From Magnetospirillum sp. (GTDB lineage Bacteria; Pseudomonadota; Alphaproteobacteria; CACIAM-22H2), in the NCBI GenBank assembly GCA_027532905.1, contig JAPZUA010000002.1:1054001-1118000 (forward strand): a stretch of 64,000 bases of DNA, read 5' to 3'. A program made the translations under genes and the position numbers. Below are positions 1,275 to 23,853 of this stretch, piece after piece; the stretch's first letter is position 1, and every line of letters begins with the position of its first letter. The notes beneath the pieces were generated by a model. The model saw only the letters and a list, made by a program, of their open reading frames with translations, did not search any database and had not been told where the DNA came from.

Positions 1275-1277
1275 GCG
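1227..1277 (+). repeat. attL core: left 51-bp direct repeat in tRNA-Glu
   Basis: These 51 bp, running from the anticodon stem through the CCA end plus three bases, are identical to 23803-23853. Bases outside the match differ on both sides (C versus T before it, A versus C after it). The repeat bounds an element that carries an excisionase-like gene next to this copy and a tyrosine integrase next to the other copy, which is the expected arrangement for tRNA-site integration. Confidence 0.95.
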
Positions 1278-6725: not shown

Positions 6726-7018
6726 ATGTGCCCCCCTTCAATCTTAATTACGCCCTCGCTCGGTCGGATATGTAGATGGTTAAGCTATAGCACGCTCCGC
6801 ACAAGTGAGTTTTCAGATTCCGCACCCTGATCCCGGTTGAGTAAGTCAGCTTCAGTGTGAAGCCGTATCGCCGGTCGCGTCCATGAGCTTGTTAAGGGAT
6901 AGCAGAGGATCTCCGATCCACAACGCTGTCGTGAGCTCTACCCATCCTCCAACTAAACTGCGGGAGGCTCCTCGCCCCCCCTTGAATGTCAGAAAAAGAT
7001 ACCTTATCCTAAAGTCGC
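6726..7018. other. Intergenic region upstream of the ABC-3C operon
   Basis: No convincing gene on either strand. The part near 6740-6800 is more AT-rich than its surroundings and should hold the minus-strand promoter of the ABC-3C operon. I could not identify a clear -35/-10 pair. Confidence 0.4.
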
Positions 7019-7261
7019 ATGAAAGAGATAGCCGCCTCTGTTTCAGACCTGTTCATAAAGCGCGTCCGCGCCAGCGTCTTCACGCCCAGCGATTTCCTCA
7101 CGGTTGCCGCTCGCCCGTCTGTCGATCAGGCCCTATCCCGGCTGGTGAAAGGCAAACAGCTCCGCCGGCTTGCGCGTGGACTCTACGACTTCCCCAAACT
7201 GCACCTGAAGCTCGGGGCAGTGTCCCCTCCGCCGTCAACATCGCCACCTCCAATCCGGTGA
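7019..7261 (+). pseudogene. Truncated DUF6088 / AbiEi-like antitoxin gene
   Basis: The first 65 or so residues (SVFTPSDFLTVAARPSVDQA, then LSRLVKGKQLRRLARGLYDF) match the N-terminal winged-helix domain of DUF6088/type IV antitoxin-like proteins, in which a long C-terminal part should follow. Here the frame degenerates after LKLGAVSP and stops at 7261, next to an IS5 fragment. No nucleotidyltransferase-type toxin (AbiEii-like) remains nearby. It is the stump of a former toxin-antitoxin or phage-exclusion module within the island. Confidence 0.7.
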
Positions 7262-7276
7262 CGAAACAATGACGGG

Positions 7277-7319
7277 TGGGTCAGTTCCAACATGCTCCCT
7301 GGGTCAGTTTGAACGTGCT
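7277..7319. repeat. Short tandem repeat, 23-bp period
   Basis: TGGGTCAGTTCCAACATGCT (7277-7296) is followed by TGGGTCAGTTTGAACGTGCT (7300-7319), identical at 17 of 20 positions. It lies at the junction of the DUF6088 stump and the IS5 fragment. It is probably the end of a mobile element, because terminal tandem repeats of this kind are common there. Confidence 0.5.
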
Positions 7320-7326
7320 CGTGACA

Positions 7327-7551
7327 TCCGTATTTCTCGGGCACGTCGCGCCAAGGGGCACCCGTGCATGTCCGCCAGAGAATGCCATTGATGGTGGGCC
7401 GATTATCCGATGCTGGGCGGTTCTTGCGGCCACGCTCGGGCGGCAAGAGATCCTTCAATATACGCCATTCAGATTCGCTCAGATCACCCCGGCCCAAGAA
7501 CGCTTCCTCTACAAAGAGGATTCTTGAACCAAGGTTCGATTCAGGCATCAA
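7327..7551 (-). pseudogene. IS5-family transposase, N-terminal fragment
   Basis: About 75 residues. LSESEWRILKDLLPPERGRK, then RPTINGILWRTCTGAPWRDVPEKYG, is the DUF4096 domain that starts IS5-type transposases. After PEKYG the match stops and unrelated sequence follows, so the DDE catalytic domain is absent. This fragment and the adjacent antitoxin stump mark a recombination scar between the ABC-3C and Gabija-like modules. Confidence 0.8.
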
Positions 7552-7709
7552 GAACTTTGTAAACAGCGCCTAGTGCGTCTCGAATCTTAAATCTTCAGCG
7601 CACCTTATACTGATCGATGAAGTATAAGTGCCGAAATCATGGAAGGCCGCGACTGCGTATCGAGGAAAACTTGACGCGATCGGCCACTAATAACGGGAGG
7701 CCAGCTAAA

Positions 7710-9677
7710 ATGTTTATTGAGCGGCTCAGGCTGACAAATTTCCGCTGCTTCGGACCTGAAGCGACAAGCGTCGACCTCACCTCCGACCTCACCACGTTTG
7801 TCGGCGTCAACGGTGCGGGGAAGACGGCCCTGATGCAGGCCCTGCAACGCCTCTTCGGCGTGACCGGCGATCAGCGACGCCTACGGCGCCAAGATTTCCA
7901 CGTCCCTGCCGCCGAGCTTGCCGCCCCGCTTCAGCGAAACTTCGTCCTGGAGGCGATCATCGCCTTTCCCGAACTGGACGCCGACGGCACCGGCGGCGCG
8001 GCAATTCCGGAATTCTTCCACCAGATGGCCACTGACGAGGCGGGCAAGCTGAAATGCCGCCTGCGTCTCGAAGCGACATGGACCGATGACGGTTCGCTCG
8101 ATGGTGCGATTGAACAGAAATACTGGGCGGTCAGGACTTTCGGGGCGTTCACCGACGCTGATTGTACCGAGTTGAAGGCTGCCGACCGGGCGCGGATCCA
8201 AATGATCTACGTGCCAGCGACGCGGGACGGCGCCTCCCAGGTGACGGCCTTTCTGCGCGGCAGGCTGTGGCGCGCCATCAACTGGTCGCAAGGAGTCCGC
8301 GACACGTTCACAAATGCCAGCGCCGCCTTGAACGGCGCTTTCGCCGGGGAGCCGGCCGTCGATGTGATCGCCGCAGCGGTTACACGGCGGTGGCAGGAAG
8401 TTTACAAAGCCGGGACCGACACGACGCCAGTGTTTCGTCCGCTCGATCTGCGTTTTGAGCATTTCATCCGGAAGGTCGAGGTGGTCTTCCGCCCCGACGA
8501 ACTCGGCCGGGAGCGAGCCCTCGATGACCTGAGTGACGGCCAGAGGTCGCTCTTTCATTTGGCGATGACTGCGGCGACACTGGATGTCGAAGCCGGGATC
8601 GTCGCCGATCCTGCTGGGGCCGGCTTCCACGCTGGCGGCGTACCGTTACCGGCGCTTACACTCATCGCGATCGAAGAGCCTGAGAACAATCTCGCTCCCT
8701 TCTATCTCTCCCGCATCGTCCGGCAGATACAGGACCTGACGAAGTCGCCGCAGGCGCAAGCCGTTGTCTCTAGCCATTCCCCAAGCATCCTCGCCCGGGT
8801 GGATCCGACGCAGGTCCGTCACTTCCGACTTAATCCGCACGATCGAACGGCCCGCATCCGTCCGATCAATCTCCCCGTCGGCGAGGAAGAGGCGTCGAAA
8901 TTCATTCGCGAGGCCGTGCGGACCTATCCCGAACTCTATTTCGCGCGCTTCGTCGTGCTGGGAGAAGGTGCGTCCGAGGAGGTCGTTCTTCCCCGTCTCG
9001 GCGAGGCGATGGGGCTCGACATCGATCGATCCTTTGTCGCGGTCGTTCCGCTGGGCGGTCGGCATGTAAACCACCTCTGGCGACTACTGACCGATCTCGA
9101 CATTCCCTACGCCACCCTGCTGGATCTCGACTGGGGACGTTCTGGGGGTGGATGGGGACGTATCAAAACGGCCTGCACGCAACTACTCGCTAACAACGTC
9201 ACGCCACAAGCCATCTTCGGACAGCACCTTAACCCCCAAGGGCCAGCCGCCAATCTGGCGGCTTTCGATGCTCTGCCGATAGAGGACACTGCAAATATCA
9301 CAACCTGGATTAACTGGCTGCGCGAGTTCAATGTCTTCTTCTGCACGCCCCTCGACCTCGACTATTCGATGCTGAAGGCCCTCCCGCTCGCCTATCAGAT
9401 CGTCGAACCCGGACGCCAAGGGCCCTCGCCGACGGGGGAGCCGCGCACGGCTGTTCTCGGCGACGGCGGCCTGCCTCACCTGTACGCTGCGGACCAGGAC
9501 GGTTTGATGCGCTGGTATAGGTATCTGTTCTTGGGCCGCGGCAAGCCTAGCACCCACGTTCGGGTGTTGAGTGCACAAGACCCGGCTGTCATTGCAGCCG
9601 CCGCTCCCGAGGAACTGCGGGCACTCATGACTTCAATTGTCGCTCGTCTCACCCCGCCGCCTCCCGAGGGTGCCTGA
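7710..9677 (+). CDS. gajA: Gabija-like protein A: OLD-family ATPase with TOPRIM nuclease
   Basis: A 655-residue protein. The ATPase half carries Walker A GVNGAGKTA (about residues 32-40), a signature LSDGQRSLFHLAM, Walker B LTLIAIEEPENN, and the switch histidine in VVSSHSPSIL. A TOPRIM domain follows: VVLGEGASEEVVLPRL supplies the acidic Glu, and LLDLDWG supplies the DxD pair. This is the GajA/OLD architecture: a nucleotide-regulated DNA nickase in anti-phage defence. The ATG at 7710 is chosen over an upstream one at 7617 because GGGAGG precedes it at 7695-7700. The helicase gene follows after two bases, so the pair is one operon. It is slightly longer than typical GajA. Confidence 0.85.
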   Translation: MFIERLRLTNFRCFGPEATSVDLTSDLTTFVGVNGAGKTALMQALQRLFGVTGDQRRLRRQDFHVPAAELAAPLQRNFVLEAIIAFPELDADGTGGAAIPEFFHQMATDEAGKLKCRLRLEATWTDDGSLDGAIEQKYWAVRTFGAFTDADCTELKAADRARIQMIYVPATRDGASQVTAFLRGRLWRAINWSQGVRDTFTNASAALNGAFAGEPAVDVIAAAVTRRWQEVYKAGTDTTPVFRPLDLRFEHFIRKVEVVFRPDELGRERALDDLSDGQRSLFHLAMTAATLDVEAGIVADPAGAGFHAGGVPLPALTLIAIEEPENNLAPFYLSRIVRQIQDLTKSPQAQAVVSSHSPSILARVDPTQVRHFRLNPHDRTARIRPINLPVGEEEASKFIREAVRTYPELYFARFVVLGEGASEEVVLPRLGEAMGLDIDRSFVAVVPLGGRHVNHLWRLLTDLDIPYATLLDLDWGRSGGGWGRIKTACTQLLANNVTPQAIFGQHLNPQGPAANLAAFDALPIEDTANITTWINWLREFNVFFCTPLDLDYSMLKALPLAYQIVEPGRQGPSPTGEPRTAVLGDGGLPHLYAADQDGLMRWYRYLFLGRGKPSTHVRVLSAQDPAVIAAAAPEELRALMTSIVARLTPPPPEGA

Positions 9678-9679
9678 AC

Positions 9680-11563
9680 ATGCGCCTTATTCGGCCAGAG
9701 GACTGGCGCCCGAGCGGCATTAACGATCTCGAACCGGCGGCGTGGAACGCCCTGCGCCACGCCGGCTCAGCGTGTGTGGTCGCAGGCCCCGGCGCCGGCA
9801 AGACCGAGTTTCTGGCCCAACGCGCCGACTATTTGCTTGAGACGGACCTCTGCCGAGCGCCGCACCGCGTGCTGGCGATTTCATTCAAAACAGATGCAGC
9901 CAACAATCTCGCGTCGCGCGTCCGCCAGCGATGTCCGCCAGAGTACGCCAACCGGTTCGTTTCGGTCACTTTCGACGCCTTCACCAAGAGCCTGGTCGAT
10001 CGCTTTCTCAACGCCATCCCCGCTGACTGGCGCCCGACCCGGCCCTACGAAATTGCCTTCCCAAAGCGCAAGGCAGTAGAACGCTTCCTGACGCTCGCCC
10101 GCCTCAGCGCGCCGTCGGAATGGCAGGCTGAAATCGCCGGCTACAGTGCGAGCGACTTTGAAGCCAAGATTGTCGGCAGCTACCGCCTGCCGATGGGGCC
10201 TATCGCGCCCCAAAACGCCGGCGAGTTCACCATCGCCCGCTGGTGGGCGACGCAACTTCCTCCAGGACAGCCTTCTTTACTCACCTTCGTCGGCATCAAC
10301 CGGCTCGCGGAGCTGCTACTCCGGGTCAATCCCCACATCCGCCGGGCGCTCGTCGCAACCTATCCCTTCGTGTTCGTCGACGAATTTCAGGACACGACCT
10401 ACGCGCAATACGACTTCCTGCATTCTGCGTTCTCTGGCGGGCAAACCATCATCACCGGCGTAGGCGACGACAAGCAGCGGATCATGGTCTTCGCCGGCGC
10501 GCGTCAGGACGCCTTTCAGCGGCTGCAGGCCGATTTCGGCGGAGAAAGGTTCCCCCTCCTCTTTAACTTCCGTTCCTCACCGGACCTAGTCGCGATTCAG
10601 TACATCGTCGCGCGCGCTCTCGATCCGAACACCGTCGCCACGGTCGCTCAGACCGTCCGACAGGTTGATGGCGACGTGGCTCAGGTTTGGTCCAGCCAGA
10701 CCAAGGCGGCGGAAGCCGCCCACTTGGCGCAATGGATCGCCAACGACATGGCCACCCGCGCCCGCGCGCCGCGCGACTACGCGCTCCTCGTGAAACAGAA
10801 GTCCGACGATTATGAGCACGAGCTCGCTGGAGCCTTCGCCGCTCAGGGTTTGCGGATCCGCAACGAGAGCCATACCCTTGGCAAAACCTCGCTTCAGGAT
10901 TTGCTTTCCGACGACTTAAGCCGGCTCGCGATTGCGATCTTCCGCCTGGGCGCGACACGCCGCGCGCCGGCCGCATGGCAGCTGGTTTCGTCATCTGTCC
11001 TGTCGCTGCGCGCTACCGGACCTGAAGATGATGCGCGCGCGGCCAAGGTCGAGGCAGAACTAAGCGCATTTCTCACGGCCTTGCGCACAGACATGGCGGC
11101 CACCGCCCCGTCGAGGCAAAGCGCTGCCGATTTCGTCAGACGGGTTTTCGAATATCTGGATCTTGGAGCGATCGCCCGAACCTATGCCGAATATGGCGTT
11201 GGCGACCTGCTTCAGATCATCCTCGAAGCTTTTTGCATCCACTTCTTCGCTTCGGCCGATGGTGCCCCGAACTGGACGGCCTGCCTAGATGCGTTCGAGG
11301 GTGTTAATCAAATTCCGATGATGACCGTCCACAAGAGCAAGGGCCTCGAATACGACACCATCATCTTCGTCGGCCTCGACGACCGTGCTTGGTGGGCCCA
11401 CACCCCCGGCGATCCCGAAGGCGTTGCCGCATTTTTCGTCGCCCTTTCGCGGGCGAAACAGCGCGCGATCTTTGCCTTCTGCCAACAACGCGGCCAGCGA
11501 AACAACGTGGCTGAACTCTATCAGCTGCTCACCGAAGCCGGGGTGCCGGAGATCGAAATATAA
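9680..11563 (+). CDS. gajB: Gabija-like protein B: UvrD/Rep superfamily 1 helicase
   Basis: A 627-residue SF1A helicase. Motif I is VAGPGAGKTEF (about residues 34-44), motif II VFVDEFQDT, motif III VGDDKQRIMVFAGA, motif IV NFRSSPDLV, motif V MMTVHKSKGLEYDTI and motif VI VALSRAKQRAIF, so the catalytic set is complete. It starts two bases after the TOPRIM ATPase stop. The pairing of an OLD-TOPRIM ATPase with a UvrD-like helicase defines Gabija, in which GajB is thought to respond to DNA ends and activate GajA. A housekeeping repair role is less likely given the location inside a mobile element. Confidence 0.84.
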   Translation: MRLIRPEDWRPSGINDLEPAAWNALRHAGSACVVAGPGAGKTEFLAQRADYLLETDLCRAPHRVLAISFKTDAANNLASRVRQRCPPEYANRFVSVTFDAFTKSLVDRFLNAIPADWRPTRPYEIAFPKRKAVERFLTLARLSAPSEWQAEIAGYSASDFEAKIVGSYRLPMGPIAPQNAGEFTIARWWATQLPPGQPSLLTFVGINRLAELLLRVNPHIRRALVATYPFVFVDEFQDTTYAQYDFLHSAFSGGQTIITGVGDDKQRIMVFAGARQDAFQRLQADFGGERFPLLFNFRSSPDLVAIQYIVARALDPNTVATVAQTVRQVDGDVAQVWSSQTKAAEAAHLAQWIANDMATRARAPRDYALLVKQKSDDYEHELAGAFAAQGLRIRNESHTLGKTSLQDLLSDDLSRLAIAIFRLGATRRAPAAWQLVSSSVLSLRATGPEDDARAAKVEAELSAFLTALRTDMAATAPSRQSAADFVRRVFEYLDLGAIARTYAEYGVGDLLQIILEAFCIHFFASADGAPNWTACLDAFEGVNQIPMMTVHKSKGLEYDTIIFVGLDDRAWWAHTPGDPEGVAAFFVALSRAKQRAIFAFCQQRGQRNNVAELYQLLTEAGVPEIEI

Positions 11564-12219
11564 GAGTGTAGGGGCAATTCAGGCGCGCCGCGCCACTATA
11601 GGGCCAACCTAACTGTCGCCAGCGGCCATCGCCAGTTTCCCGGCTAGATGCTGCATGAACGAACGCCTGTTCTCGAATATCTGGACAGTTCGTTCTTCAT
11701 CGTGCCGCTCGAGCGGGTGCATCGCCTGATTGCGCCAAGTGACCTGACCGAGTTTTTGAACCAAGCCGACTGGGAGATCTGGCCTGCTCAGAAAGAAATA
11801 GACGACTGGCTAGCCCGGATTATGACACTTGTCTTCGTTTGTCGTTCAGGTACGGTTAAGAAACGAAATCCTGGAGATTTATGAAGCCAACACTTCAAAA
11901 TGACGTGCAACAGAACGAAGAATAATACGTCGATGGATTCTTCAGCGGCGTCATCGACGAGCGAGAAGCCGAACTTGCCATCCTCACGCGTGCTGGGCGT
12001 CTCTTCGCCGTCTGGTGCGCCGACCTGCGAGGACCCTTTGGCAAAACTGCCGTGGCGATTGGATGGATACACGGGCCTCCGCTACATCGCGCGCCGACAT
12101 GACCGCACGAAGACCTCGTCGGGAGGATAAATGGCCTCTACAAAGCTGAGGTCATTCATCGGCGCGGCCCCTGGCGGAGCTTCATCCATTTAGGCCTCAA
12201 ACTTTTTGGCCTGACCGCA
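11564..12219. other. 656-bp region between the Gabija-like and R-M modules
   Basis: No gene I can support. A 78-codon frame starts at 11648 (MLHERTPVLEYLDSSFFI) with no recognisable domain and no good ribosome site. A start-less open stretch from about 11921 to 12110 reads like protein (DEREAELAILTRAGRLFAVW) but is closed by a stop just upstream, so it may be the 3' remnant of a lost gene. Otherwise the region is unremarkable. Confidence 0.35.
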
Positions 12220-15039
12220 TCACTTCACGCCATAGACCTTCATGACCTCGTCGCCGAGATGGTTGATGACCTTGACGGCGATACGGCCCGATTTGGGCTT
12301 TGCGAAGGGGCGCGAGACAGCACTGTGCAGGCTGTCCCAGGCCTCCTTGTCGATTTCGGCCTTCAGCGTGGTCTTGAGCGCCTTGTAGGGGTCGTTGGCC
12401 CCCAGGAAATAGGCGTGGCGCACGAAGAAGCTTTCGCCGTTGTAGTCCGTATCGACCATCCAGAGCGCCAGCTCGTCGGCTTCCGAGGTTTCGACCTTGC
12501 CGGTCTGCGGCCGGAAGATATCGACCCCGCGAATCTCGACGGCCAGCTCGTTGCCGGGCCGGTCGTGGAATACGATATCCGGCTCGCCGAACACCACGAA
12601 TAGATTGCCGGCCCCGGTGTTCTTGAGCTCGCCCGCCATGTGCAGATCGGGATGCATGCGCGCCTTCAATACCGGAATGCGCCCGAGTTTCTCGAACTCG
12701 GACGAATGGGCGTCGTAGTTAAAGGCGCAGGCAATCAGCATGTCGAAACCGGCATCGGCCGCTTCGCGCGCAGCCATCACCAGATCCTGGCGCGCGACCG
12801 TGCCGAATTCCGGCCCGATGAAAATGCCCGCCCGGCGCTCCTTGTCGCCCTCCAGATAGCGGCCCTCGGCGCAAATATAGTCCCCGCCCGGCCAACCCTG
12901 CAGCGACGTGAAGGCAATCTTGCCTTCCTTGTGCGCCTGCTGGACGCCGGCCTTCTGCAGATTGTCGAGCACCACGCGCGTGAATTCCGGCCCCTCTTGG
13001 CTGCCGCCCGCGCCAGCCTGCCGCGCAGTTGCCGCCGCCCCTTCGTCGAACAGCCCGTCGTCCTCGTCCACCGCCAACACGCGATGCGGCGACAGGCTTT
13101 CGACCGTAAACGGCCCTGCCACGCGCACGCGCGCATCGTCGGCGTAAGGCCGGTCGTAGAGATATTCGAACTCGGCCTTGGCTGCGATCGACGCGTCGAT
13201 TTCCTTCTGGCGGCCGATGCGCGCTTCCCACCATTTCGCATGCGCGTCTTTGGCCTTGGCGGGCCATTTCGCATCCGCCTCGCGCGGGATTTCCCATTCT
13301 TCCCATTTTTTGGCGAGGGCCGCATTCAACTGCGTGCGCAGCGGCTCGAGTACGAGCTGCCACTTGTCCCAAATCACATCGATTTCGGCGTTGTTGGCAA
13401 TGGATTTGAGCGTGATATGCGGCACGCGTTCATACACAAACCCGTGCCGGATATTGCCGTGCGTCGCCGCCTGCTTGGGTGCGGTGCGCGTAACCTCGGC
13501 TTCCTTCTTCTGGCCCTCAGGCGAGTCCGCCAGCAGGTAGAAGGGATAACGCGCGCCCATAATGCGCGAACGCGCCAAAGCGGCAGCAACACGCGACGTG
13601 TCGATCGTGATCCAGCGTCGCCCCCATTGCTCGGCGACATAAGCCGTAGTACCCGAACCGCAAGTCGGATCGAGTACGAGGTCGCCGGGATCGGTGGTCA
13701 TTAAAATACATCTTGCAATCGCACGCTGGTCAGTTTGTACCACATAGACTCTTTCATCACCGACGAAGCCTCCAGTTCCAGTATCGGTCCAGAGATTCGT
13801 ACGTGGCATTAGTTGATTGTCTTCGAGATACCGAACCATACGCAGTACCCGGCCTTTTTCGATTAATCGATCGGCTTTAACTAGGGTCTTCAGTCGTTCG
13901 GGAGTCGTCTTCCAGTGCGCATTTGGCGGACAAGGATAAGATTTTCCTTGGAACTCGATCGGCGAAGATGATGTCGCTGAAACACCCGGCGAAACTAACG
14001 GATTTCGAGCCAACAAACGCGCGTCTGTCGGAATCGTTCGTAGGTCTTCTTTTTCGTCCCGAGTGAGTTGACGACGCACCCCAGGGGAAATTTCTATCGT
14101 ATCGAAAAAGGCTGGATCGCATTCCGCTAAACCGCGAAAGGCATATGCTGGGCGATACTTAATGCTGGAGCGATTTCGGCCATACCAAAGAATTGTATCG
14201 AATACATTCGATAGATAATCGGAAGACGAATAACCTGTCTTCTTGAATTGAATCTGACTTATTAGGTTATCTTCGCCAAACACCTCATCCATTACCGCTC
14301 GAACGCGATGCACATTCTCGTCCCCAATCTGGACGAAGATCGAGCCGCTGTCGGACAGAAGATCGCGCGCGACCGTCAAACGGTCGCGTAGATAAGACAG
14401 ATACGAGTGGATGCCGTCGCGCCAAGTGTCGCGAAAGGCCCGGACCTGTTCGGGCTCGCGGCTGATATGGTCTTTGCTGCCGTCTTTCACGTCGCGACTG
14501 GTCGTCGACCATTGGAAATTCGAATTGAATTTGATGCCGTAAGGCGGATCGAAATAGATGCACTGCACTTGCCCGCGCAATCCTTCGCGCTCGGCAAGGC
14601 TCGCCATCACCTGCAGCGAATCGCCGACGATCAGCCGGTTCGTCCAATGTGCGTCGTGCTGGTAGAACTCGGTCGCGGCCTCTTTGTCGGGCAGGCCGTT
14701 GAAATCGGCGAACAGGTCGGGGGCTGCGGGGGCGGCTTCCTTCTTGCGCGCTTTGCTTTGGCGCAGCAGATCGTCGATCAGGACCTTCGGGTGGACCTTC
14801 TCCTGGATGTAGAGCGGCGGGGCGGGCACCACGAGGTCCGACCAATCCTGCTCGTCTTTGCCGCGCCACACAAGCTGCGGGTCGAGATCCTTGTTGCGCC
14901 GCTCGAACGCAACGCGGATCGGCGATTTGGTCGCCGGATCGACAACGGTTTCAAGCTCCGCCGTCGGGATGTTTTTGCGCTTGGCCGCAACATGCGTCAG
15001 CGCTTCGACCTTGGCTTCGGCTTTCGTCTTTTTGGGCAT
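12220..15039 (-). CDS. mod: Type III-like Mod: DNA adenine methyltransferase
   Basis: A 939-residue beta-class methyltransferase. The catalytic DPPYG motif comes first (about 164-168) and the AdoMet-binding motif DPTCGSGTT later (about 452-460), with the target-recognition domain between them. It is predicted to modify adenine N6 and provide both the sequence specificity and the self-protection of the R-M pair. Around 470 residues follow the AdoMet motif, longer than classic EcoP-type Mod, and include no second catalytic motif. The recognition-domain part of the gene (about 13700-14290) is much more AT-rich than its flanks. It lies 41 bp downstream of res, the reverse of the usual mod-res order. 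Confidence 0.88.
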   Translation of the reverse strand: MPKKTKAEAKVEALTHVAAKRKNIPTAELETVVDPATKSPIRVAFERRNKDLDPQLVWRGKDEQDWSDLVVPAPPLYIQEKVHPKVLIDDLLRQSKARKKEAAPAAPDLFADFNGLPDKEAATEFYQHDAHWTNRLIVGDSLQVMASLAEREGLRGQVQCIYFDPPYGIKFNSNFQWSTTSRDVKDGSKDHISREPEQVRAFRDTWRDGIHSYLSYLRDRLTVARDLLSDSGSIFVQIGDENVHRVRAVMDEVFGEDNLISQIQFKKTGYSSSDYLSNVFDTILWYGRNRSSIKYRPAYAFRGLAECDPAFFDTIEISPGVRRQLTRDEKEDLRTIPTDARLLARNPLVSPGVSATSSSPIEFQGKSYPCPPNAHWKTTPERLKTLVKADRLIEKGRVLRMVRYLEDNQLMPRTNLWTDTGTGGFVGDERVYVVQTDQRAIARCILMTTDPGDLVLDPTCGSGTTAYVAEQWGRRWITIDTSRVAAALARSRIMGARYPFYLLADSPEGQKKEAEVTRTAPKQAATHGNIRHGFVYERVPHITLKSIANNAEIDVIWDKWQLVLEPLRTQLNAALAKKWEEWEIPREADAKWPAKAKDAHAKWWEARIGRQKEIDASIAAKAEFEYLYDRPYADDARVRVAGPFTVESLSPHRVLAVDEDDGLFDEGAAATARQAGAGGSQEGPEFTRVVLDNLQKAGVQQAHKEGKIAFTSLQGWPGGDYICAEGRYLEGDKERRAGIFIGPEFGTVARQDLVMAAREAADAGFDMLIACAFNYDAHSSEFEKLGRIPVLKARMHPDLHMAGELKNTGAGNLFVVFGEPDIVFHDRPGNELAVEIRGVDIFRPQTGKVETSEADELALWMVDTDYNGESFFVRHAYFLGANDPYKALKTTLKAEIDKEAWDSLHSAVSRPFAKPKSGRIAVKVINHLGDEVMKVYGVK

Positions 15040-15080
15040 GGTCTCAAGTCTCCAACCGGGTTGCGGCCCGGTCTTGGGGG

Positions 15081-18000
15081 CTATTCGGCTGGCGCCAAAG
15101 CGGGCGCAAGGCTTGCGACGAGTGCTGCGAACTCCTCGCGTATTTTGTAGACAGCCGTAAATTCGGCGAATGCCCAGCGGCCGTAGCTGCCGAGATTATT
15201 CACGCCCGGAACCCAATAGGCCTTCATCGTGTTGGCTTTCTCTTTGGCGTCTTCGCCGCGATAGCCCTTCACTTCGATGATTAGATGGAGCGGGTCGGCG
15301 TGCCCGTCGTCGATTTTGACGATGAAGTCGGGGATGTAGCGGCGCGGCACGCCGCCCATCACATAGGGCACCTCGAAGCCGAGATTCTGGTTCTTCGCGT
15401 AAGCCAGAACCTTGGGATGGTCCTCGACTACGTTGCAGAGCTCGGCTTCCCAGTCGCCGTCGCAGACGACGAGATTTAAGTGGCAGCGATTATGCCCGGT
15501 CGTCCAGAACGTATCTTTGGTCGTCGTGAAATTGACGAAATTCGTCGATCCCGTCGGATTGTAGGGATCGAGGATCGCGCGCACGGGCTTCGAGTCGGCG
15601 TGCGAGATCGTGATCGCCGCCATGATCTTCTCGCACGCGCGGTCGGCGATCTGGCGATAGAGCAACTGGCCTGGCTTGGTGCCGCCCTCGCACACCAGAT
15701 AGCCGCCGTCGAACCATTCGCGCGCGATGCGCTTGAGCTGGCCGAACAGATGCAGCTTGGGCTGCTCGCCCGGATCGCGGAATTTTTCATAGAGCAAGTG
15801 TTTAGCCAGATGGAACAGCACCGTTGCAGGCCGCACATCGTCGAGATGTTCGAGCGTCAGGTTGATGCCCTCGCCGACAATGCCCTGCACCTTCACCTGC
15901 GCCGGGCCAACAAGTTCGGGCGTCAAGCGCAAGGTCGAGTCCTTCGAGAAAGTCGCGGTCAGGCGCTCTTCGGGCAGTTCCACGCGATAACCTTCGACGC
16001 GCGGAAAGCGGATTTCCAGCGCGTCGCGATCCGGCCGCACGGCATGCACGCGCGTCGATTTCTGCGTTTCTTGCGGTGCCACCACGACCGGCTTGCCGGC
16101 GAAATGGAACGGGATGCCGAGAATGTCGGCATATTCGACATTGAATTTTTCTTCGGCGTTCAACACGTAGGATTGGCGACGCAGGGCGCGGCCGACGACC
16201 TGTTCGCACAAAAGCTGCGTGCCGAAGGCGCGCACGCCCAGAATATGCGTGACCGTGTTGGCATCCCACCCCTCGGTCAGCATCGAGACCGAGACGACGC
16301 AACGGATCGATTCGCCCAAGCGGCCTTTTTTGCCGACCGTGTTCATCACTTCGCGCAGAAGGTCCTGGTCGGAAATATTGTCGGCGGCGTGCTGGTCGCC
16401 GGTGCGCTCGATGATGTCGCGCCGGAAGCGGTCGATTTCGTCGCTTGCGGCTTCGCGGAAACTGCCATCCAAAGCTTCGCCGGATTCGAGCTGTTCGCTG
16501 TCGATCAGCAGCGTATTGGGGCGCGCCATCCGCGCGCCGTCGGCGGCATAGTTGGCGAAGAGATCGAAATGCCCTGGCGTGAATGTGCCGGCCTCGCCCG
16601 GTGCGGGGCGCCAATAGCCGGACATGTATTCGTAGATCAGCTCCGAAATCGACGTGTTCTGGCACACGACGATGAAAACCGGTGGTACCTCGATTTTCTT
16701 GTCCTGCCAGCTTTTGAAGACTTTTTCGTAGTGGCCGTAGAGCGCATCGAGGGCGGTCAGCAGCACGGTTGGCAGTTTGCTGGGGTCGTATTTGCTGCCG
16801 CTCTTGTCGCGGCCCTTTTTGGGTAGGTCCTTGCCGATATGCTCCCAGAGATTCCGGTAGATCGGCAGTTCCTCGCCCGTGATGTTGTCGGCGACAGGAA
16901 TGCGCGGCAGCTTCACGATGCCGCATTCGATCGCGTCCATCAGCGAGAAGTCGCTGACGGTCCACGGGAACAAGGTGCCTTCCGCGTAGCCCGAGCCACG
17001 CAGGAAGAACGGGGTTGCCGAAAGATCGAACACGCCGCGAATGCCGAGTTTGGCGCCGACGGCTTCGAGGCCTGAGATCCAAAGGCGCGCGGCCTCGTTG
17101 TTCTTCTCGGCCTCAAGCTTGTCTTCGGCTTTCAAGCCTTTTCTGTCGCTCGGCTTTTCGCGGTAGCAATGGTGGGCTTCGTCGTTGAGCACAACGATAT
17201 GCTTGAGGCCCATGAGTTCGGGCATCACGCGCTGGAGCATCTGGCCTTCGCTCTCCAGCGTTTCGAGTGCCGACCCGTGGCCCTGCAGCAAAGCGCGGCC
17301 GGTTTTCGAGAGCTCGATGCGCTCGCGCAGTTTGAAAGCGTGATAGTTCGTGACGACGATTTTTGCCCGCGCGATGTCGGGCAGCATGTCGCCGGGCACG
17401 ATCTCGCGGTTTTTGTAGTAGCTCTCGGGGTCGTTGGGCAGCAGCACACGCAACCGGTCGCGGATCGTGATGCCGGGGGCCACGACAAGAAAGCCGCGCG
17501 AAAACAGCTTGCTGGTCGGGTGGCGCACGGCATTGACCGTCTGCCATGCAATCAGCATCGACATGACGGTGGTTTTGCCGGCACCGGTCGCGAGCTTCAG
17601 CGCCAGCCGCAGCAGCTTGGGATTGGCTTCGGCGTTTGCACCCTTCACATGCGCCCAGAACTTGGCGGTCCGAGCCCCGCCTTTGGGGGCGACTTCGGTC
17701 AGCCAGATTGCGGTTTCGACGGCTTCGATTTGGCAGAAAAATGGCCGCACGCCGTTGAATTCGTGGCTACGCCAATGCTGCAGCAGGCGCGCCGTCTCCG
17801 GCGTTACCTGCCACTGGTTCGGGTTGGGAAGTGCACGCCAATCGTCCACGAACTGGCGGATCTCGTTGATGATCGGAAGCGGATTATACGCTTGCTCGGC
17901 GGTCGACAGGCCGTCGGCATCGCCCAGCGTCATCTCCGCTTGGCTTTTGCTCTTCTGCTTTTTCGCGGCCGGAACCGGCGATATCAGCTCGGATTTGCGG

Positions 18001-18113
18001 CGGGCGGCGATTTTTGTGTTGGTCGGCTGGCCCGTCTCGTCGAGCTGCCAATGGTAGACGGGGCGAGCATAGGGCGAATTGACGATAGGCTGACTGAAGA
18101 AATCGTCCGTCAT
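15081..18113 (-). CDS. res: Type III-like Res: DEAD/DEAH translocase with nuclease domain
   Basis: A 1010-residue SF2 enzyme. Walker A is LATGAGKTTVM (about 174-184), the DEAH box is in VVLNDEAHHCY, motif III is LSATPFF, and a late helicase motif is EQVVGRALRRQSY. Near the C terminus PDFIVKI, then LIIEVKGYRG, gives the PD-ExK nuclease signature. This is the restriction subunit expected to translocate and cleave with Mod. Res precedes Mod in the transcript. An alternative is a BREX- or DISARM-like helicase, but neither system's other genes are present. Confidence 0.88.
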   Translation of the reverse strand: MTDDFFSQPIVNSPYARPVYHWQLDETGQPTNTKIAARRKSELISPVPAAKKQKSKSQAEMTLGDADGLSTAEQAYNPLPIINEIRQFVDDWRALPNPNQWQVTPETARLLQHWRSHEFNGVRPFFCQIEAVETAIWLTEVAPKGGARTAKFWAHVKGANAEANPKLLRLALKLATGAGKTTVMSMLIAWQTVNAVRHPTSKLFSRGFLVVAPGITIRDRLRVLLPNDPESYYKNREIVPGDMLPDIARAKIVVTNYHAFKLRERIELSKTGRALLQGHGSALETLESEGQMLQRVMPELMGLKHIVVLNDEAHHCYREKPSDRKGLKAEDKLEAEKNNEAARLWISGLEAVGAKLGIRGVFDLSATPFFLRGSGYAEGTLFPWTVSDFSLMDAIECGIVKLPRIPVADNITGEELPIYRNLWEHIGKDLPKKGRDKSGSKYDPSKLPTVLLTALDALYGHYEKVFKSWQDKKIEVPPVFIVVCQNTSISELIYEYMSGYWRPAPGEAGTFTPGHFDLFANYAADGARMARPNTLLIDSEQLESGEALDGSFREAASDEIDRFRRDIIERTGDQHAADNISDQDLLREVMNTVGKKGRLGESIRCVVSVSMLTEGWDANTVTHILGVRAFGTQLLCEQVVGRALRRQSYVLNAEEKFNVEYADILGIPFHFAGKPVVVAPQETQKSTRVHAVRPDRDALEIRFPRVEGYRVELPEERLTATFSKDSTLRLTPELVGPAQVKVQGIVGEGINLTLEHLDDVRPATVLFHLAKHLLYEKFRDPGEQPKLHLFGQLKRIAREWFDGGYLVCEGGTKPGQLLYRQIADRACEKIMAAITISHADSKPVRAILDPYNPTGSTNFVNFTTTKDTFWTTGHNRCHLNLVVCDGDWEAELCNVVEDHPKVLAYAKNQNLGFEVPYVMGGVPRRYIPDFIVKIDDGHADPLHLIIEVKGYRGEDAKEKANTMKAYWVPGVNNLGSYGRWAFAEFTAVYKIREEFAALVASLAPALAPAE

Positions 18114-18322: not shown

Positions 18323-18682
18323 CTACAATTCAATTTCTATCGATTTCTTCGGTGGCGGCTTCGGCGGCGCTGCCATCTTTGATTTTTGCTGGGCAGCGTC
18401 GATAAGCTGATCCGGAGTGAAGCCCTGCGCTATTGCCCATTTGGCGAATGACAATAACGAGGTTGCGCCCCAGCCATGATCGGCCGATTTGACCCGAATG
18501 AAGGCTTTGAGGGAGTCGAATTCCCTCCGATCCTGGGCGACTTCCAGCCTCCGGTATGCGTCACGGAGCTGTTCGCGCTGCTCCGATATCCCTTGCTTCA
18601 GATTCTCTATCCTTTTTTCAAGGGTAGCGATGCGCTTCCGCAGACCTCCAAATGGGTCGATGTCCTGTATCGCGTTGTCCAT
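18323..18682 (-). CDS. Coiled-coil protein, possible relaxosome accessory
   Basis: A 119-residue protein of unknown family. Residues 16-55 (LRKRIATLEKRIENLKQGIS, then a second heptad stretch) form a predicted coiled coil. A globular middle, and a proline/lysine tail, follow. The ATG at 18682 has GGGAG upstream; longer versions of the frame would run through the palindromes and are rejected. It is transcribed away from the relaxase gene across a palindrome-rich intergenic region. That is where MobC-like accessory proteins often lie. Function is inferred from position only. Confidence 0.6.
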   Translation of the reverse strand: MDNAIQDIDPFGGLRKRIATLEKRIENLKQGISEQREQLRDAYRRLEVAQDRREFDSLKAFIRVKSADHGWGATSLLSFAKWAIAQGFTPDQLIDAAQQKSKMAAPPKPPPKKSIEIEL

Positions 18683-18731
18683 TTTATGCTCCCTATTTGA
18701 GTAGTCAGTACCGCCGCAGCTTATCCCCACC

Positions 18732-18844
18732 CGTCTTAAAAACCGGCGCGGCGGGAGCGTGTTTTTAAAATTAACAGTTTCTTGTTGTAGTTTCTGACTG
18801 CGCCAATGCTCAAACCCGCTCCCGCCGCGCCGGTTTTTAAGACG
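18732..18844. promoter_or_regulatory. Candidate origin of transfer (oriT) with 28-bp palindrome arms
   Basis: Two perfectly complementary 28-bp arms (18732-18759 and 18817-18844, each with CGTCTTAAAAACCGG at the outer end) enclose 57 bp. The loop contains CAGTTTCT, then TGACTGCGCC (18795-18804). From memory, the RSF1010-type (MOBQ) nic region has CAGTTTCT followed by a TGCGCC core at similar spacing. It lies directly beside a MOBQ-type relaxase gene. No other stretch of the element is so palindromic. The nic position is inference. Confidence 0.65.
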
Positions 18845-18936
18845 CTCCGGACTATTCTGACACCGGCATCGAGGCAATGAGGTGCCGCCGCCGGCGGCTT
18901 CGGATTAACAAACCAGCGGCCGCAGGCCGCCGATGC

Positions 18937-19002
18937 CTTTTCCCGAGGATGCCGGAGGCATCCTCGGGAAAAGCGCAATTCTTCGTCCCACACCTGTGGG
19001 AC
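18937..19002. repeat. Two further perfect inverted repeats before the relaxase gene
   Basis: Arms of 17 bp (18937-18953, CTTTTCCCGAGGATGCC; complement at 18957-18973) are separated by three bases. A second pair of 8 bp, GTCCCACA at 18985-18992, has its complement at 18995-19002. They lie between the candidate oriT and the relaxase ribosome site and would fold in the leader RNA or as cruciforms. They may be part of oriT, or a hairpin controlling relaxase translation. Confidence 0.7.
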
Positions 19003-19020
19003 GACACGGAGGCAAATGAA

Positions 19021-21315
19021 ATGGACCATTTCGACGAGGACTTCTGGAAAAAACACCGCCCTGGACGCCTGGACGAAGGCGATCAAGAGGTCAAACTTCT
19101 TCTCGGAGGAAGACATGGCGTTCCACCCCCGGTCCTCCTGCGGATGGCGCGCCGCTTCGCGATTCGCCATCAGCAACCGATCGCGCAAGTTTCTCAGGAT
19201 GTCCGGGCCAAATACGCGGCCGTCGATAGTGCACCCCCCGGAACCAACATTCAGCCAGTGCACTTTCGGCAATCGCGGGTTTCCGCACCCCGCACTTGGA
19301 GCCTTCCAAATTCGGTAAAGGAGCGATCAAGTGTCGCCATATTTCCGATCGGAAGAGACGTCGAAATCGTAAAGGAGGCCGGTGCAAAATACTGCGACCG
19401 CCACCATGTCTGGACGATTGCATCGAATAGCAAATTCTTGACCACCCCGAAGGGGCGAAGTCTATCAACTCCCGCTGCCGCTATGGCCCGTGAGCGCTGG
19501 CGGAACGGGTCCGGCGCAGCAAAAAGCAAATATACCGCTGTCGACCACCAAGTTTATATCGAGCGACACACGCGCAATGGTGAGCGGCGCCAACGGGAAA
19601 TCATACATGATAGCATGGGGCCAATTCTGCTCGGCTCGATCGGCGCCACGCTTGAGCAGCGCAAACTTTTTTGGCGAAAAATTGCCGATAGCGAGGCGAG
19701 AATCGATGCGACTCTTCAGCTAAGAATTATCGCTGAGCTGCCCTACGATCTCCCGCCAGAGAGAATCCGAAATTTGCTGACGGAATTTGGCGAAGTTTTT
19801 GACTCAAAACAGCTCGGATGGTTTGCGGCCGTTCACCAACCAAACACAGCTGCAGGAGGCGACAAGAGAAACATCCATGTGCATATCGTTTATTTCGATA
19901 GGCCCATCATTGGCTGGAAGCCGCAAGGATCGGCGCCAGACTCAACTCTTGAACCGGATTTCGCGGAAAGAAAGAACCGAGATTGTGCGGGCGCGCAATG
20001 GATACGTTCTCTCCGAGAAGCGTACGTCAACGCCGTCAACCGCGCGCTCGTCGAACACTACGCCAAGCATCCTCAGGAATTCCAAAGACTGTATCATCCT
20101 GGATCGTACTCGGACATTGGCATCTTGCAAAAATGCCGGCAACGGCACCTGGGGCAGACGGCGACCGCGCTAGAACGCAGAGGCATCCCTAGCAAAACAG
20201 GGCTCTATAACATTCGCAGCACTCTCACCGAGATTGAGGCTCGCGAATCTAGATGCCTTGATCGATTGACCGAGCTTTACGCAAAACTCAACCGAGTCTC
20301 AAAAAAGCTACAGGTTGCCTCGACTGCACGCCATGCGACGCCAATTGAGATTCAGCGGCTGTCGGAGTTGTTAGCGTCACAGTCAGCGGCAATCGAAAAT
20401 TTGCTTGTGGATATCGACAAGAAGGCAGGCAGTGTCATACTCGCGAGCTATGCGGAGATTGACCCACTGCACTACGCTGGAACACAAGAATTGCTATCTC
20501 GTGCTTTGCAGGGTGATGGGCTCAATGCCGAAAAGACCCCGCCTCCAACCTATGCTGAACTACTGATCCGCTACCTTGACTCATTGGGCCACCATAGTGC
20601 GGCGCGAACGTTGATCGACGAATTGGTCAAGCTTGAAAAAGTCGAAAACATAGACGAGATAATTCGGCAACGACGCATCCTGACATCGCTTCGATTGCCG
20701 GTGCTGCGTGCTCTCGAATCGTCGATCGATGAACTCGAATCACTATTGAGCGATTTGCTGAAGACAAACCAAGATTTGCGGAAAGCACTCGAACGCGACA
20801 CGGCCAGATCAAATCGACAGCAAGATCTATATCCGACGATTAGCACGTCACGTGATCGTGTTCGGGCAATTGACGCGCCCGCCAATAACACCAACGGGAT
20901 TAACAATGCAAAAGATGCCCCTGAGAGCGATACGATCGCGTCTGGCCTAGCTCGCGAAAGCGCCAAACTGCAGTCAGAAGATATCTCCAAGTCTAACGTT
21001 GCTTCGGCAATCCAGCGTCTCCTCAATTCGAACTCGGGGTACACAAGGGCCAAGATTTCTGAAAAGGACCTAAAGCGATTTTCCGTGATCGAATTGAAGC
21101 AGCTGTACAACAACCGAGCCCGTGCTCTGGAAGCAAGCGAGCGACCTGCCGAGCACGAATCCCTTAGGTATGAACTTCACTTGATAAGGCGAGAGATTGA
21201 CCAGAAAGATCTCAGCCGCGCTATACTGAAGGATCCGGAGGTAATAAACCCAAAGGATACAGATGTGCAGCAAGAGCCGCTGCGCAAGCCTAAGAGGGAT
21301 ACCTGGGATCGTTAA
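19021..21315 (+). CDS. MobA/MobL-family relaxase (MOBQ-like)
   Basis: A 764-residue DNA-nicking protein expected to cut oriT and lead the strand into a recipient. The core has LFWRKIADSEARIDA, then LRIIAELPYDL, then the metal-binding RNIHVHIVYF (His at about 286 and 288). These match the MobA/MobL consensus. The catalytic Tyr is probably in VDHQVYIER (about residue 179). About 165 residues precede the core, with a DUF5710-like piece (VKEAGAKYCDRHHVWTI, about 117-133). That is unusual because these relaxases normally begin with the nicking domain. The C-terminal half is helical and may bind DNA or a helper system. Start 19021 follows GGAGG by eight bases. Confidence 0.8.
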   Translation: MDHFDEDFWKKHRPGRLDEGDQEVKLLLGGRHGVPPPVLLRMARRFAIRHQQPIAQVSQDVRAKYAAVDSAPPGTNIQPVHFRQSRVSAPRTWSLPNSVKERSSVAIFPIGRDVEIVKEAGAKYCDRHHVWTIASNSKFLTTPKGRSLSTPAAAMARERWRNGSGAAKSKYTAVDHQVYIERHTRNGERRQREIIHDSMGPILLGSIGATLEQRKLFWRKIADSEARIDATLQLRIIAELPYDLPPERIRNLLTEFGEVFDSKQLGWFAAVHQPNTAAGGDKRNIHVHIVYFDRPIIGWKPQGSAPDSTLEPDFAERKNRDCAGAQWIRSLREAYVNAVNRALVEHYAKHPQEFQRLYHPGSYSDIGILQKCRQRHLGQTATALERRGIPSKTGLYNIRSTLTEIEARESRCLDRLTELYAKLNRVSKKLQVASTARHATPIEIQRLSELLASQSAAIENLLVDIDKKAGSVILASYAEIDPLHYAGTQELLSRALQGDGLNAEKTPPPTYAELLIRYLDSLGHHSAARTLIDELVKLEKVENIDEIIRQRRILTSLRLPVLRALESSIDELESLLSDLLKTNQDLRKALERDTARSNRQQDLYPTISTSRDRVRAIDAPANNTNGINNAKDAPESDTIASGLARESAKLQSEDISKSNVASAIQRLLNSNSGYTRAKISEKDLKRFSVIELKQLYNNRARALEASERPAEHESLRYELHLIRREIDQKDLSRAILKDPEVINPKDTDVQQEPLRKPKRDTWDR

Positions 21316-21468: not shown

Positions 21469-22176
21469 TGCCCCGGGTTCCGCGGACACGTAGTTAAGCT
21501 ACCCGCATCTTCGCCTCGAAGGCTATCGAGCTCTTGTAACCGAGCGTTGAGTTCCTGCGATGCGGGTTGCAGAAGCGCTCGATATAGTCGAACACGTCGG
21601 CTCACGCATCGTCACGCGTGCGATAGATCTTTCGGCTGACCCGCCGGGCGCCGTAAAACCGGTCGCTGGTCAGGAAGCTCGATCGTATCTCACGTTCGAG
21701 CATGGCGTCGTAGACGGACCTGTCGCTCGGCGGGCGGCCCAGACAGGCGTAAAACCCGCCATGCGAGACACCGAGCGCCCCGCACATCCACCGCACCGGC
21801 CAGATCCCTCGGTGCTTCGCCACGAAGCCGAACTTCACATCGACTCCTTCGCGAAGTAGGCCGCGGCTTTTTTTAGGATGTCGCGCTCCGCCTTCAGCTT
21901 CACGACGCAGCCGCTCGATCTCTTGCCGCTCGGGCTTCATTTGCCCATGACCGGGGAATGCGCTCTTCGGATCGGCAGCCTGCTGCCTAGACCATTTACG
22001 CAGCAAGTTCTCGTGGATATCCAGATCGCGTGCCGCCTGTGCGACCGACACGCCGCGATCTCGTGCCAGCTTCACCGCCTCAAGCTTGAACTCGCGGCTG
22101 AAGATCCTTCTCTGTCCCATGGTCGTCCTCCGGTTCCAGTGTGACACCAATCTCGGTGTCCGCGAAACCCAGGGCA
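21469..22176 (-). mobile_element. Internally deleted IS3-group element with intact ends
   Basis: The termini are clear inverted repeats. The left end reads TGCCCCGGGTTCCGCGGACA from 21469; the right end, on the minus strand from 22176, reads TGCCCTGGGTTTCGCGGACA. Only 708 bp lie between them instead of the 1.2-1.4 kb usual for the family, because the middle of the transposase is gone. Flanking trinucleotides (GGC and GAC) are similar but not identical, so a target duplication is not proven. It could still be moved in trans by a full-length relative. Confidence 0.85.
21488..22120 (-). pseudogene. IS3 transposase remnant lacking the DDE core
   Basis: Begins at ATG 22120 (MGQRRIFSREFKLEAVKLAR) with the OrfA helix-turn-helix. 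It then passes into the OrfB N terminus (KFGFVAKHRGIWPV, then HGGFYACLGRPPSDRS and FYGARRVSRKIYRTRDDA). At 21602 the frame stops. The next sequence encodes the far end of OrfB in another frame (DYIERFCNPHRRNSTLGYKS). Roughly 160 residues with the catalytic Asp and Glu residues are missing. Confidence 0.85.
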
Positions 22177-22364
22177 GACCAGTGGAGCTCCAGCGCCACG
22201 GCATTAACTCGACGGTGCGTTTGGTCGGCCGACCTTACGCAAGGCGGGCAATATCCGCCAGCACAAGCTCTTTGCGCCCTGTATAGAGAATGCTTTGGTG
22301 CTCCCCGCACCAGTACACGGCATCAGCAGGCGGACTATACTCATGACGATAATAAAGATAAAAC

Positions 22365-23660
22365 TTATAAATCATTACCATTTAAACCCATATATCCAAA
22401 TGCGGTTCGCACAGTATCAGCAACGTAACTGGGCGACAGATGTGCATAGTGTCGGCTGGTTACACGAATATCGGCGTGGCCCAATTGTGCCGCGATCACC
22501 GCCATGGGCACGCCAGAACGCACAAGTCGACTGGCGTAGGTATGGCGCAGAATATGAAATGAAATCATCGGTGCAATACCTGCCACCTCGCAAGCTACGT
22601 GCAGTGGACGCACCTGTTCCGCCGCTTTCCAAGGCTTCCCGTTGCTCCGCAAAAACACCAGCGCATTTGGCACCTTACCAGTTACTGCCTGAGCAAAGAA
22701 TTCGTGCCCCTCGTCAGTTAATGCGACATCACGGGGCTTGCCACTCTTGGTGAAAGGTATATGGATAGAACTATTATCGAAGTTTAAATCTGAAACGCGC
22801 ATCTTTATAAGTTCACCATATCGGCAGCCAGTCAGCAGCGCAGCAATTAAAATAGCCCGAAAACTTGTCTCGCATGCATTGACCAACCGCAAAGCTTCAT
22901 CGTCCATCAGGTAACGGATCCGTGGCGCATCTGTGTTTTCAAATGGCTTTACGGCAGCCCATGCGGAATCTGATGAAATGTGCTGGCATTGGTGGGCGTG
23001 ATTCAATGCTGCGCGGAGTGTCGAAAACACCCGGTTTGCTGTTGCCCGTCGTTTGCGTAACTGGTCGGGATCGTTGATATCAATTTCTTTGAACTTTTGT
23101 TCGTGCCCCCGCTGCGTGCGAAGCCTGCGCCCGGTTTTTGTGAGCCCGTCGCGAAACCCCTTCACTTGGCTATGGGTCAATTTGGCAAGTTGAACAGATC
23201 CCAAAACCGGCCGGATCAGAACATCAATCGCTTGCCGTGTCTCTTTTTCCGCTCGGCCGCCCCGTGTTCGATAATCACTTAAGTAATCATCGAGTGCGTC
23301 ACCAACCGTATATGGCTGAGTTACGTCCACTCCGCCTGCCTCTGCTCGCGCAGCCTCCACCAACCACGCGCGAGCGCACTCTTGTGCCTGCGCAAAAGTC
23401 AGAACACGAGTCCCATCCGCAGGGGCGTAATCGTCGGCTGCTCCGAGGGCACGATATCTAATCCGAGGATATCCGTCCGATGTATAGCGGCGCGCGATCC
23501 ATGTTCCACCCTTACCAGCGCTGCGTCGGTAGCCGAGCGCAAACCCTGGTTCGATTGCGCGCCAGTGAGGTTCGCGACGTGCGGGCAACTTTTCACGCGC
23601 GCTAAAGCTGTCAAGTTTACCGCCACGCACTTTCGTACTTTTGAGACCGCCACGCATCAT
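22365..23660 (-). CDS. int: Tyrosine-recombinase integrase
   Basis: A 431-residue phage/ICE-type integrase. The C-terminal catalytic domain shows Arg in LLTGCRYGELIKM, the Lys-bearing beta hairpin in PFTKSGKPRDVALT, HxxR in SFHILRHTYASRL, the second His in LGHADIRVTSRHYAH, and the nucleophilic Tyr in SRHYAHLS. The middle core-binding domain and an N-terminal arm-binding domain precede it. Start: ATG at 23660, with GGAAGG eleven bases upstream; a TTG at 23669 is too close to that site. It is the last gene before attR and reads inward. A candidate arm site lies directly upstream, so integrase probably represses its own synthesis. Confidence 0.93.
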   Translation of the reverse strand: MMRGGLKSTKVRGGKLDSFSAREKLPARREPHWRAIEPGFALGYRRSAGKGGTWIARRYTSDGYPRIRYRALGAADDYAPADGTRVLTFAQAQECARAWLVEAARAEAGGVDVTQPYTVGDALDDYLSDYRTRGGRAEKETRQAIDVLIRPVLGSVQLAKLTHSQVKGFRDGLTKTGRRLRTQRGHEQKFKEIDINDPDQLRKRRATANRVFSTLRAALNHAHQCQHISSDSAWAAVKPFENTDAPRIRYLMDDEALRLVNACETSFRAILIAALLTGCRYGELIKMRVSDLNFDNSSIHIPFTKSGKPRDVALTDEGHEFFAQAVTGKVPNALVFLRSNGKPWKAAEQVRPLHVACEVAGIAPMISFHILRHTYASRLVRSGVPMAVIAAQLGHADIRVTSRHYAHLSPSYVADTVRTAFGYMGLNGNDL

Positions 23661-23676
23661 GTCACCCAATACCTTC

Positions 23677-23802: not shown

Positions 23803-23853
23803 CACCCTTTCACGGTGGATACAGGGGTTCGAATCCCCTAGGGAACGCCAGCG
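23803..23853 (+). repeat. attR core: displaced 3' end of tRNA-Glu
   Basis: An exact copy of 1227-1277. It contains the anticodon loop, T arm, acceptor 3' strand and CCA, but lacks the 5' half (D arm and acceptor 5' strand), so it cannot make a tRNA. It is the original chromosomal end of the gene, pushed 22.6 kb away by integration. Confidence 0.95.

Follow-up and report, generated by a model that had tools for sequence, protein, structure and literature searches.

The intergenic interval between a relaxase gene and the small gene that diverges from it raises the question of where transfer would start, and what purpose the longest palindrome in that interval would serve. The sequence analyzed here (the window) is a 64-kb stretch, positions 1054001–1118000 of contig C2 in an assembly (G000) of 4.26 Mb, 13 contigs and 95.7 % completeness. 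We propose an origin of transfer (oriT) next to the relaxase gene and, separate from it, a divergent promoter region under a shared regulator; as a whole, with nicking and promoter activity as its predictions, this reading seems reasonably probable to us.

The mobilizable element and its sisters

The locus belongs to a 22.6-kb integrative and mobilizable element, IME-1, in a tRNA-Glu gene (Table 1); it has an integrase, att repeats and its own relaxase, and its relatives point to an alphaproteobacterium as the probable host. In the small ORF near attL, the HTH_17 match (E=1.1e-7) is over the curated cut-off and the Phage_AlpA match (E=5e-4) just under it. VirB4 (PF03135) gave no match in the G000 assembly; among the 11 genomes of the genus the profile matched once, at a VirB4-like gene (G005:C13:127700–128317) that possibly belongs to a helper system. 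The cargo (3086–18113) includes ABC-3C genes (DUF3732, MC3, CTD7), an OLD-like TOPRIM ATPase with a UvrD-type helicase, which we take to be a Gabija-like pair, and a BPTD_3080-family restriction enzyme with an N6/N4 methylase; judged from these genes, it looks like a defence island. An IS3-family transposase ORF (21602–22204; HTH_Tnp_1 and a partial match to an IS3 model) lies between the relaxase and the integrase. Two further elements occupy the same contig: IME-2, with a relaxase starting at C2:23095, a coil-like ORF and an integrase, and IME-3, with tRNA-Pro, an integrase, an HTH-like ORF, a relaxase and a coil-like ORF. No direct repeats were found at the ends of IME-2 and IME-3 in the stretches compared.

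Table 1. Features of IME-1 in the window (positions count from the first base of the window).
Feature	Position	Strand	Evidence or remark
attL, 3′ part of tRNA-Glu	1227–1277	+	51-bp exact direct repeat with 23803–23853
HTH_17/AlpA-like ORF, 63 aa, possible excisionase/regulator	1347–1538	−	Pfam matches
Third box, towards HTH ORF	1598–1618	−	1 mismatch; −10-like TTCAAT 30 nt from box start; 59 bp to ATG
Coil-like ORF, 119 aa, candidate relaxosome accessory protein	18323–18682	−	Divergent from relaxase, MobC-like position
Palindrome, two boxes head to head	18732–18844		28-bp perfect arms (97 % over 33 nt)
Box copy 1, left arm, towards coil-like gene	18734–18754	−	−10-like GATAAG/TAAGCT at about 18725–18718
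Box copy 2, right arm, towards relaxase	18822–18842	+	−10-like TATTCT at 18853–18858; 178 bp to relaxase ATG
Predicted oriT hairpin 3′ of core	18937–18973		17-bp arms, 3-nt loop
Predicted nic core 5′-AGAATTGCGC	18973–18982	−	Alignment with RSF1010 TAAGTGCG/CCCT
Predicted oriT inverted repeat 5′ of core, expected relaxase-binding hairpin	18983–19004		10-bp arms, 2-nt loop
MobA/MobL-family (MOBQ-like) relaxase, 764 aa	19021–21315	+	PF03389 match
Tyrosine integrase	22365–23669	−	Phage_integrase
attR, 51-bp tRNA-Glu repeat	23803–23853	+	Direct repeat of 1227–1277

The relaxase start, an ATG, was set by alignment of seven relaxases, all of which match MobA_MobL (PF03389, E=3e-8 in the window relaxase); the NCBIfam MobQ match is far under its cut-off, at 43 of 200 bits. 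Candidate catalytic residues Y179, E239, H272, H286 and H288 are invariant in all seven, and were equated by motif and eye with Y25, E74/E76 and H112/H120/H122 of MobA as given in the available excerpt of PMC6856555. An AlphaFold model of the relaxase domain (mean pLDDT 36.6) is too poor to support this residue assignment, and a profile search of PDB sequences gave no match at 0.01. About 150 residues (19021–19560) precede the candidate catalytic Tyr region; part of them may resemble a DUF5710-like domain, with no Pfam match. Close relaxases occur in three of 11 genomes of the genus. A sample of the class yielded matches in 16 of 385 genomes, outside G000 to part of the domain only. A single-protein query against genome contigs found no relative. 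In plasmids, a search for DNA related to 18323–21315 (E 1e-5) or 18684–19025 (E 0.01) found none; protein relatives there are 25–31 % identical in the best 20 of 56 records.

The coil-like ORF, called coiled-coil from visual inspection, has no family match above a cut-off and a weak one to TIGR02680. A divergent small ORF accompanies the relaxase in all six aligned loci (G010:C109 left out). At the latter locus (L005), the relaxase copy appears in two matches with an internal TAG, and is probably decayed.

Inverted repeats and the predicted oriT core

Three perfect inverted repeats lie in the interval. The palindrome, which the initial annotation described as 28-bp perfect arms around 57 bp, was confirmed at that size (18732–18759/18817–18844), and its arms reach 33 nt when one mismatch is allowed (18732–18764/18812–18844). 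The 17-bp perfect repeat that had been described before the relaxase start is also present (18937–18953/18957–18973), while the last repeat, put at 8 bp, measures 10 bp (18983–18992/18995–19004). With loops of up to 100 nt, no other perfect inverted repeat in the window is as long as those of 28 and 17 bp; the longest arm that arose by chance in 20 first-order Markov simulations of the window was 14 bp.

The interval had been proposed to be an oriT of RSF1010/MOBQ layout. Its position beside a MobA/MobL relaxase agrees with this, and the interval probably contains an oriT; what changes is the position of the core, which likely corresponds to the region between the 17-bp and 10-bp repeats (18937–19004) and would be read on the other strand. 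This assignment comes from a comparison of seven close relaxase loci (three in G000, two in G005 and two in G010), of which at most six are independent because L006 and L007 are closely related. In all seven, TTGCGC is found on the strand opposite the relaxase, 41–55 bp before the relaxase start, and a hairpin with arms of 8–11 bp ends 3–6 nt before it; each of these 5′ hairpins was equalled by at most four of 300 shuffles. A second hairpin directly follows TTGCGC in six of the seven loci, each equalled by at most two of 300 shuffles. Its arms are 12–16 bp in five loci, and in L007 the scan chose a longer, imperfect pairing; at G005:C8 the same scan did not find a 3′ hairpin. Stem sequences vary between the elements, with pairing preserved.

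The core reads GAATTGCGC in the window and TWATTGCGC in the six other loci. The tested RSF1010 substrate, as described in the available part of PMC4814116, consists of a hairpin and then TAAGTGCG/CCCT; the conserved TTGCGC resembles this core and does not equal it, the window having AGAATTGCGCTTTT. An inverted repeat directly 5′ of the nic core, as in RSF1010, is present in the window as in all seven loci. The order of hairpin and core is that of RSF1010. By alignment of the core with TAAGTGCG/CCCT, the predicted nick falls, on the minus strand, between 18974 and 18973. We infer both nicking and its strand: the MOBQ-like relaxase of the neighbouring gene would bind the 10-bp hairpin and nick the minus strand at 5′-AGAATTGCG/C, and the relaxase gene would then enter the recipient last.

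No such oriT was found in three more distant plasmid relatives (Azospirillum, Indioceanicola and Thalassospira). A scan of 21 loci, one of which (L062) is the window itself, gave one clear extra case in G264, a genome of another family, where hairpin–GGTA–TTGCGCC stands upstream of a distant relaxase ORF (L083, ~7496, reverse orientation, G264:C2). This is a single site, seen in L047 and L064, and was left out of the seven; it suggests a wider oriT type. L053 contains two weaker hairpin–TTGCGC sites.

A 21-bp box repeated in three elements

The arms of the palindrome are two head-to-head copies of a 21-bp box, CCGCCGCGCCGGATTTTAAGA, and match other places of the G000 genome. The box was searched as the pattern TCTTAAAANCCGGNGCGGCGG (19 fixed bases, ≤3 mismatches), with the reversed pattern as control. 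G000 gave ten matches, nine of them in the three IMEs (three each) and one on C4, versus seven for the control; at ≤1 mismatch, the numbers are seven and one. As the control nearly equals the real pattern at three mismatches, the claim of a box rests on the close matches and on their positions.

Each IME carries an inverted box pair between the relaxase and the coil-like ORF, plus one single copy. The gaps from box to coil-like ORF are 51, 47 and 65 bp in the three elements, and those to the relaxase 178, 177 and 186 bp. The single copy of IME-1 points at the HTH_17 ORF (gap 59 bp), that of IME-2 at the integrase (30 or 45 bp, depending on the start codon) and that of IME-3 at the HTH-like ORF (21 bp), the HTH_17 match of which (E=0.0027) is under the Pfam cut-off. 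Two other genomes of the genus have one box each, which gives 11 copies examined in all. G003, the only one of the other 22 genomes of the order with a box at ≤1 mismatch, has it before a Phage_AlpA ORF (E=3e-12; gap 51 bp from an internal ATG). The box of G004 (2 mismatches) adjoins an integrase 92 % identical to that of IME-3 and lies 21 bp before an ORF that is 52 % identical to the HTH-like ORF of IME-3 and has no HTH_17 match. For these two ORFs, the listed starts, 21 bp from the box, are too near for a normal leader.

The box was not found in the G005 and G010 elements. In L006 (1234–1323) and the same region of L007, looser paired GC-rich/CTTAAAA (TTTTAAG) arms lie between the coil-like ORF and the oriT, possibly a diverged box of another regulator; no GC-rich/TTTTAAG pair was seen in L004 or L005. 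At ≤1 mismatch, the class sample of 385 genomes gave G000 and a single match in G136, which falls inside long open frames and was considered a chance match. Pattern matches outside G000 and G003/G004 were read at 27 loci (G026:C13 is among those left out): of those with 2 mismatches, the one in G005:C15 sits in an open frame of 502 codons, that in G028 in one of 228 and that in G026:C12 in one of 149. The exact sequence CTTAAAANCCGGCGCGGCGG had no occurrence in IMG/VR and one 20-mer spelling of the box retrieved no papers; among the papers listed by a literature search, judged mostly from titles and abstract openings and covering few subscription journals, none was recognizable as a description of the box or the elements.

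Promoter-like signals and the probable role of the palindrome

The 11 boxes were aligned and the best TATAAT match was counted at each offset, the downstream sequence having been seen before the test was fixed. A −10-like hexamer lies downstream, with its optimum 29–31 nt from the box start (mean 3.55; four of six bases in six boxes, three in the other five). In 2000 shuffles of the downstream sequence, this mean was never attained at any of the 23 offsets (22–44). Other pattern matches served as a control: their 29 rows (27 distinct sites), of which 27 rows fall in open frames that span at least 150 codons, had a mean of 1.93, with seven reaching 3 and none 4. TTTAAG inside the box is a better match (10 of 11 boxes, offset 12–14, mean 3.91), and since this is the best TATAAT match of the whole alignment, the true −10 could lie inside the box instead of downstream. 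The TTGACA match is 2–3 of 6 at 16–18 nt before the downstream hexamer and 2–4 of 6 before the in-box TTTAAG; none is good.

The best reading of the palindrome from these signals would be a control element, namely divergent promoters under one shared regulator. One promoter of the box pair would serve the relaxase and be transcribed through the oriT, and the other would serve the coil-like accessory gene, with the box covering the −35 region and part of the spacer and a weak −10-like hexamer downstream. Because that hexamer is weak and there is no good −35, a dedicated activator is the most likely user of the box. One trans-acting regulator would turn on excision and mobilization together, given that the same box precedes an HTH/AlpA-like ORF or an integrase in the three IMEs. 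The sequences, their conservation, their positions and the −10 spacing are observed; promoter activity, an activator role and a single regulator for all boxes are what we infer from them. The initial annotation had likewise paired an oriT with a control hairpin; the two assignments are swapped in our analysis, in which the 17- and 10-bp repeats likely flank the oriT core and the control role more likely falls to the 28-bp palindrome.

Alternatively, the boxes could be repressor operators, or belong to promoters read by a dedicated alternative sigma factor, and the palindrome would still be a divergent promoter region. A box that overlies the −35 position, with a −10-like hexamer at a constant distance, is compatible with this, repressor sites and sigma-factor promoters would show like conservation, and the box extends into the spacer, unlike AcaCD sites as portrayed in the available part of PMC5058578. 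A repressed promoter, however, would be expected to retain a recognizable −35, and the TTGACA match at that place is at best 2–3 of 6. Moreover, some 21 conserved bases are long for a sigma-factor promoter element. On balance, we regard this alternative as unlikely, with appreciable weight.

The initial annotation had placed the nic core in the palindrome itself: the 28-bp arms would be the oriT stem, and the words CAGTTTCT (18775–18782) and TGACTGCGCC (18795–18804) in its 57-bp loop an RSF1010-like nic core. Both words do exist; relative to the excerpt of PMC4814116 available, eight nucleotides equal the left arm of the RSF1010 repeat and TGCGCC equals the bases around the RSF1010 nick. In RSF1010, however, the words are joined by an inverted repeat, whereas the second half here is a direct AGTTTCT, so that no hairpin stands beside the nick that the loop words would define. 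Furthermore, the corresponding spacers in the two sister elements lack both words, 168 bp separate the boxes of IME-2, which differ at 5 of 21 positions, and an alternative core is found in all seven relaxase loci. The loop words, which have no hairpin and are not conserved, were rejected as a nic core, and an oriT formed by the palindrome is very improbable. Least probable of all, and of hardly any weight, is a MITE-like insertion or a structural single-stranded DNA hairpin of the oriT, which would account for long near-perfect arms, a short spacer and single copies elsewhere in the elements, but predicts neither that all 11 examined copies point at an element ORF, nor that paired copies differ (at 5 of 21 positions in IME-2 and 2 of 21 in IME-3), nor that nine of ten matches in the own assembly fall within the three IMEs, nor the fixed −10 spacing.

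A proposed shared regulator for several islands

The relaxases of the three IMEs are 30–33 % identical, similarity between the integrases of IME-1 and IME-2 is confined to a 47-residue stretch (38 % identical), and blastp (E 1e-3) found no match among the three coil-like proteins or between the HTH proteins of IME-1 and IME-3. The proteins encoded by the elements seem to have diverged too far for a common DNA specificity, while the boxes deviate from the 19 fixed pattern bases at only 0–3 positions. Because the proteins have diverged and the boxes barely differ, a shared trans-acting factor would be a better explanation than three diverged cognate regulators. Since G000 gave no VirB4 match, no helper with the box is seen in this genome. 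More specifically, a master activator from a helper element or the host may run a regulon across several unrelated alphaproteobacterial IMEs through the 21-bp box and couple excision to mobilization, as an independent counterpart of AcaCD/SetCD; we offer this as a tentative proposal whose chances fall slightly short of even. If it is true, a signal would release the three islands of the chromosome at the same time, including the one that carries anti-phage-type genes.

In the part available of a 2017 review (PMC5704250), no IME then described from Proteobacteria was canonical (own relaxase, no T4SS), and mapped nicks were limited to some canonical IMEs of Bacteroidetes and Firmicutes. The present locus offers a predicted, testable oriT for a proteobacterial IME of the canonical type, and the shared box opens to test the question of what wakes several silent islands at once. 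The analysis also suggests that the most striking palindrome of a mobilization locus need not be its oriT.

Comparison with known systems

The predicted oriT can be compared with that of RSF1010/R1162 and its relaxase MobA (MOBQ1), which has in common a MobA/MobL relaxase and an inverted repeat followed by a TGCG/C core (PMC4814116, available excerpt). The elements described here differ from it in the core (TWATTGCGC in the relatives, GAATTGCGC in the window), in a second strong hairpin directly after the core, in the candidate catalytic Tyr at residue 179 instead of 25, and in an accessory-like protein that matches no family over a cut-off. The gene order resembles that of the MOBQ4 mobilizable plasmids, in which the oriT occupies the intergenic region that separates mobA from a divergent small mobC without known homology, as described in the excerpt of PMC6856555 available. 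Those are small plasmids, whereas the present elements are tRNA-integrated islands, and the same excerpt does not mention a repeated promoter box.

Such a box recalls SGI1, MGIVmi1 and MGIVflInd1, islands controlled by AcaCD/SetCD, where a long box precedes excision and mobilization genes of unrelated islands (PMC4207636, PMC5058578 and PMC5704250, each in the part available). According to these excerpts, the AcaCD promoters of SGI1 have a −10 and no obvious −35 (PMC5058578), and the helper plasmid carries paired AcaCD sites in its divergent vcrx059/traI region (PMC4207636). The 11 boxes show a pattern of this type in which the −10 is weak and its place not unique, and there is no good −35. 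In contrast to the AcaCD/SetCD islands, these IMEs encode their own MOBQ-like relaxase and reside in a different bacterial class, and the box sequences of the two systems are unlike each other (GCCCAAAATGGGC). In the SGI1 promoters as described there, the site ends at the −35 and the −10 follows 22–24 bp after it, whereas here the box runs on and the hexamer lies 8–10 nt after the box; the geometry of box and −10 is similar in kind to that of AcaCD, not equal.
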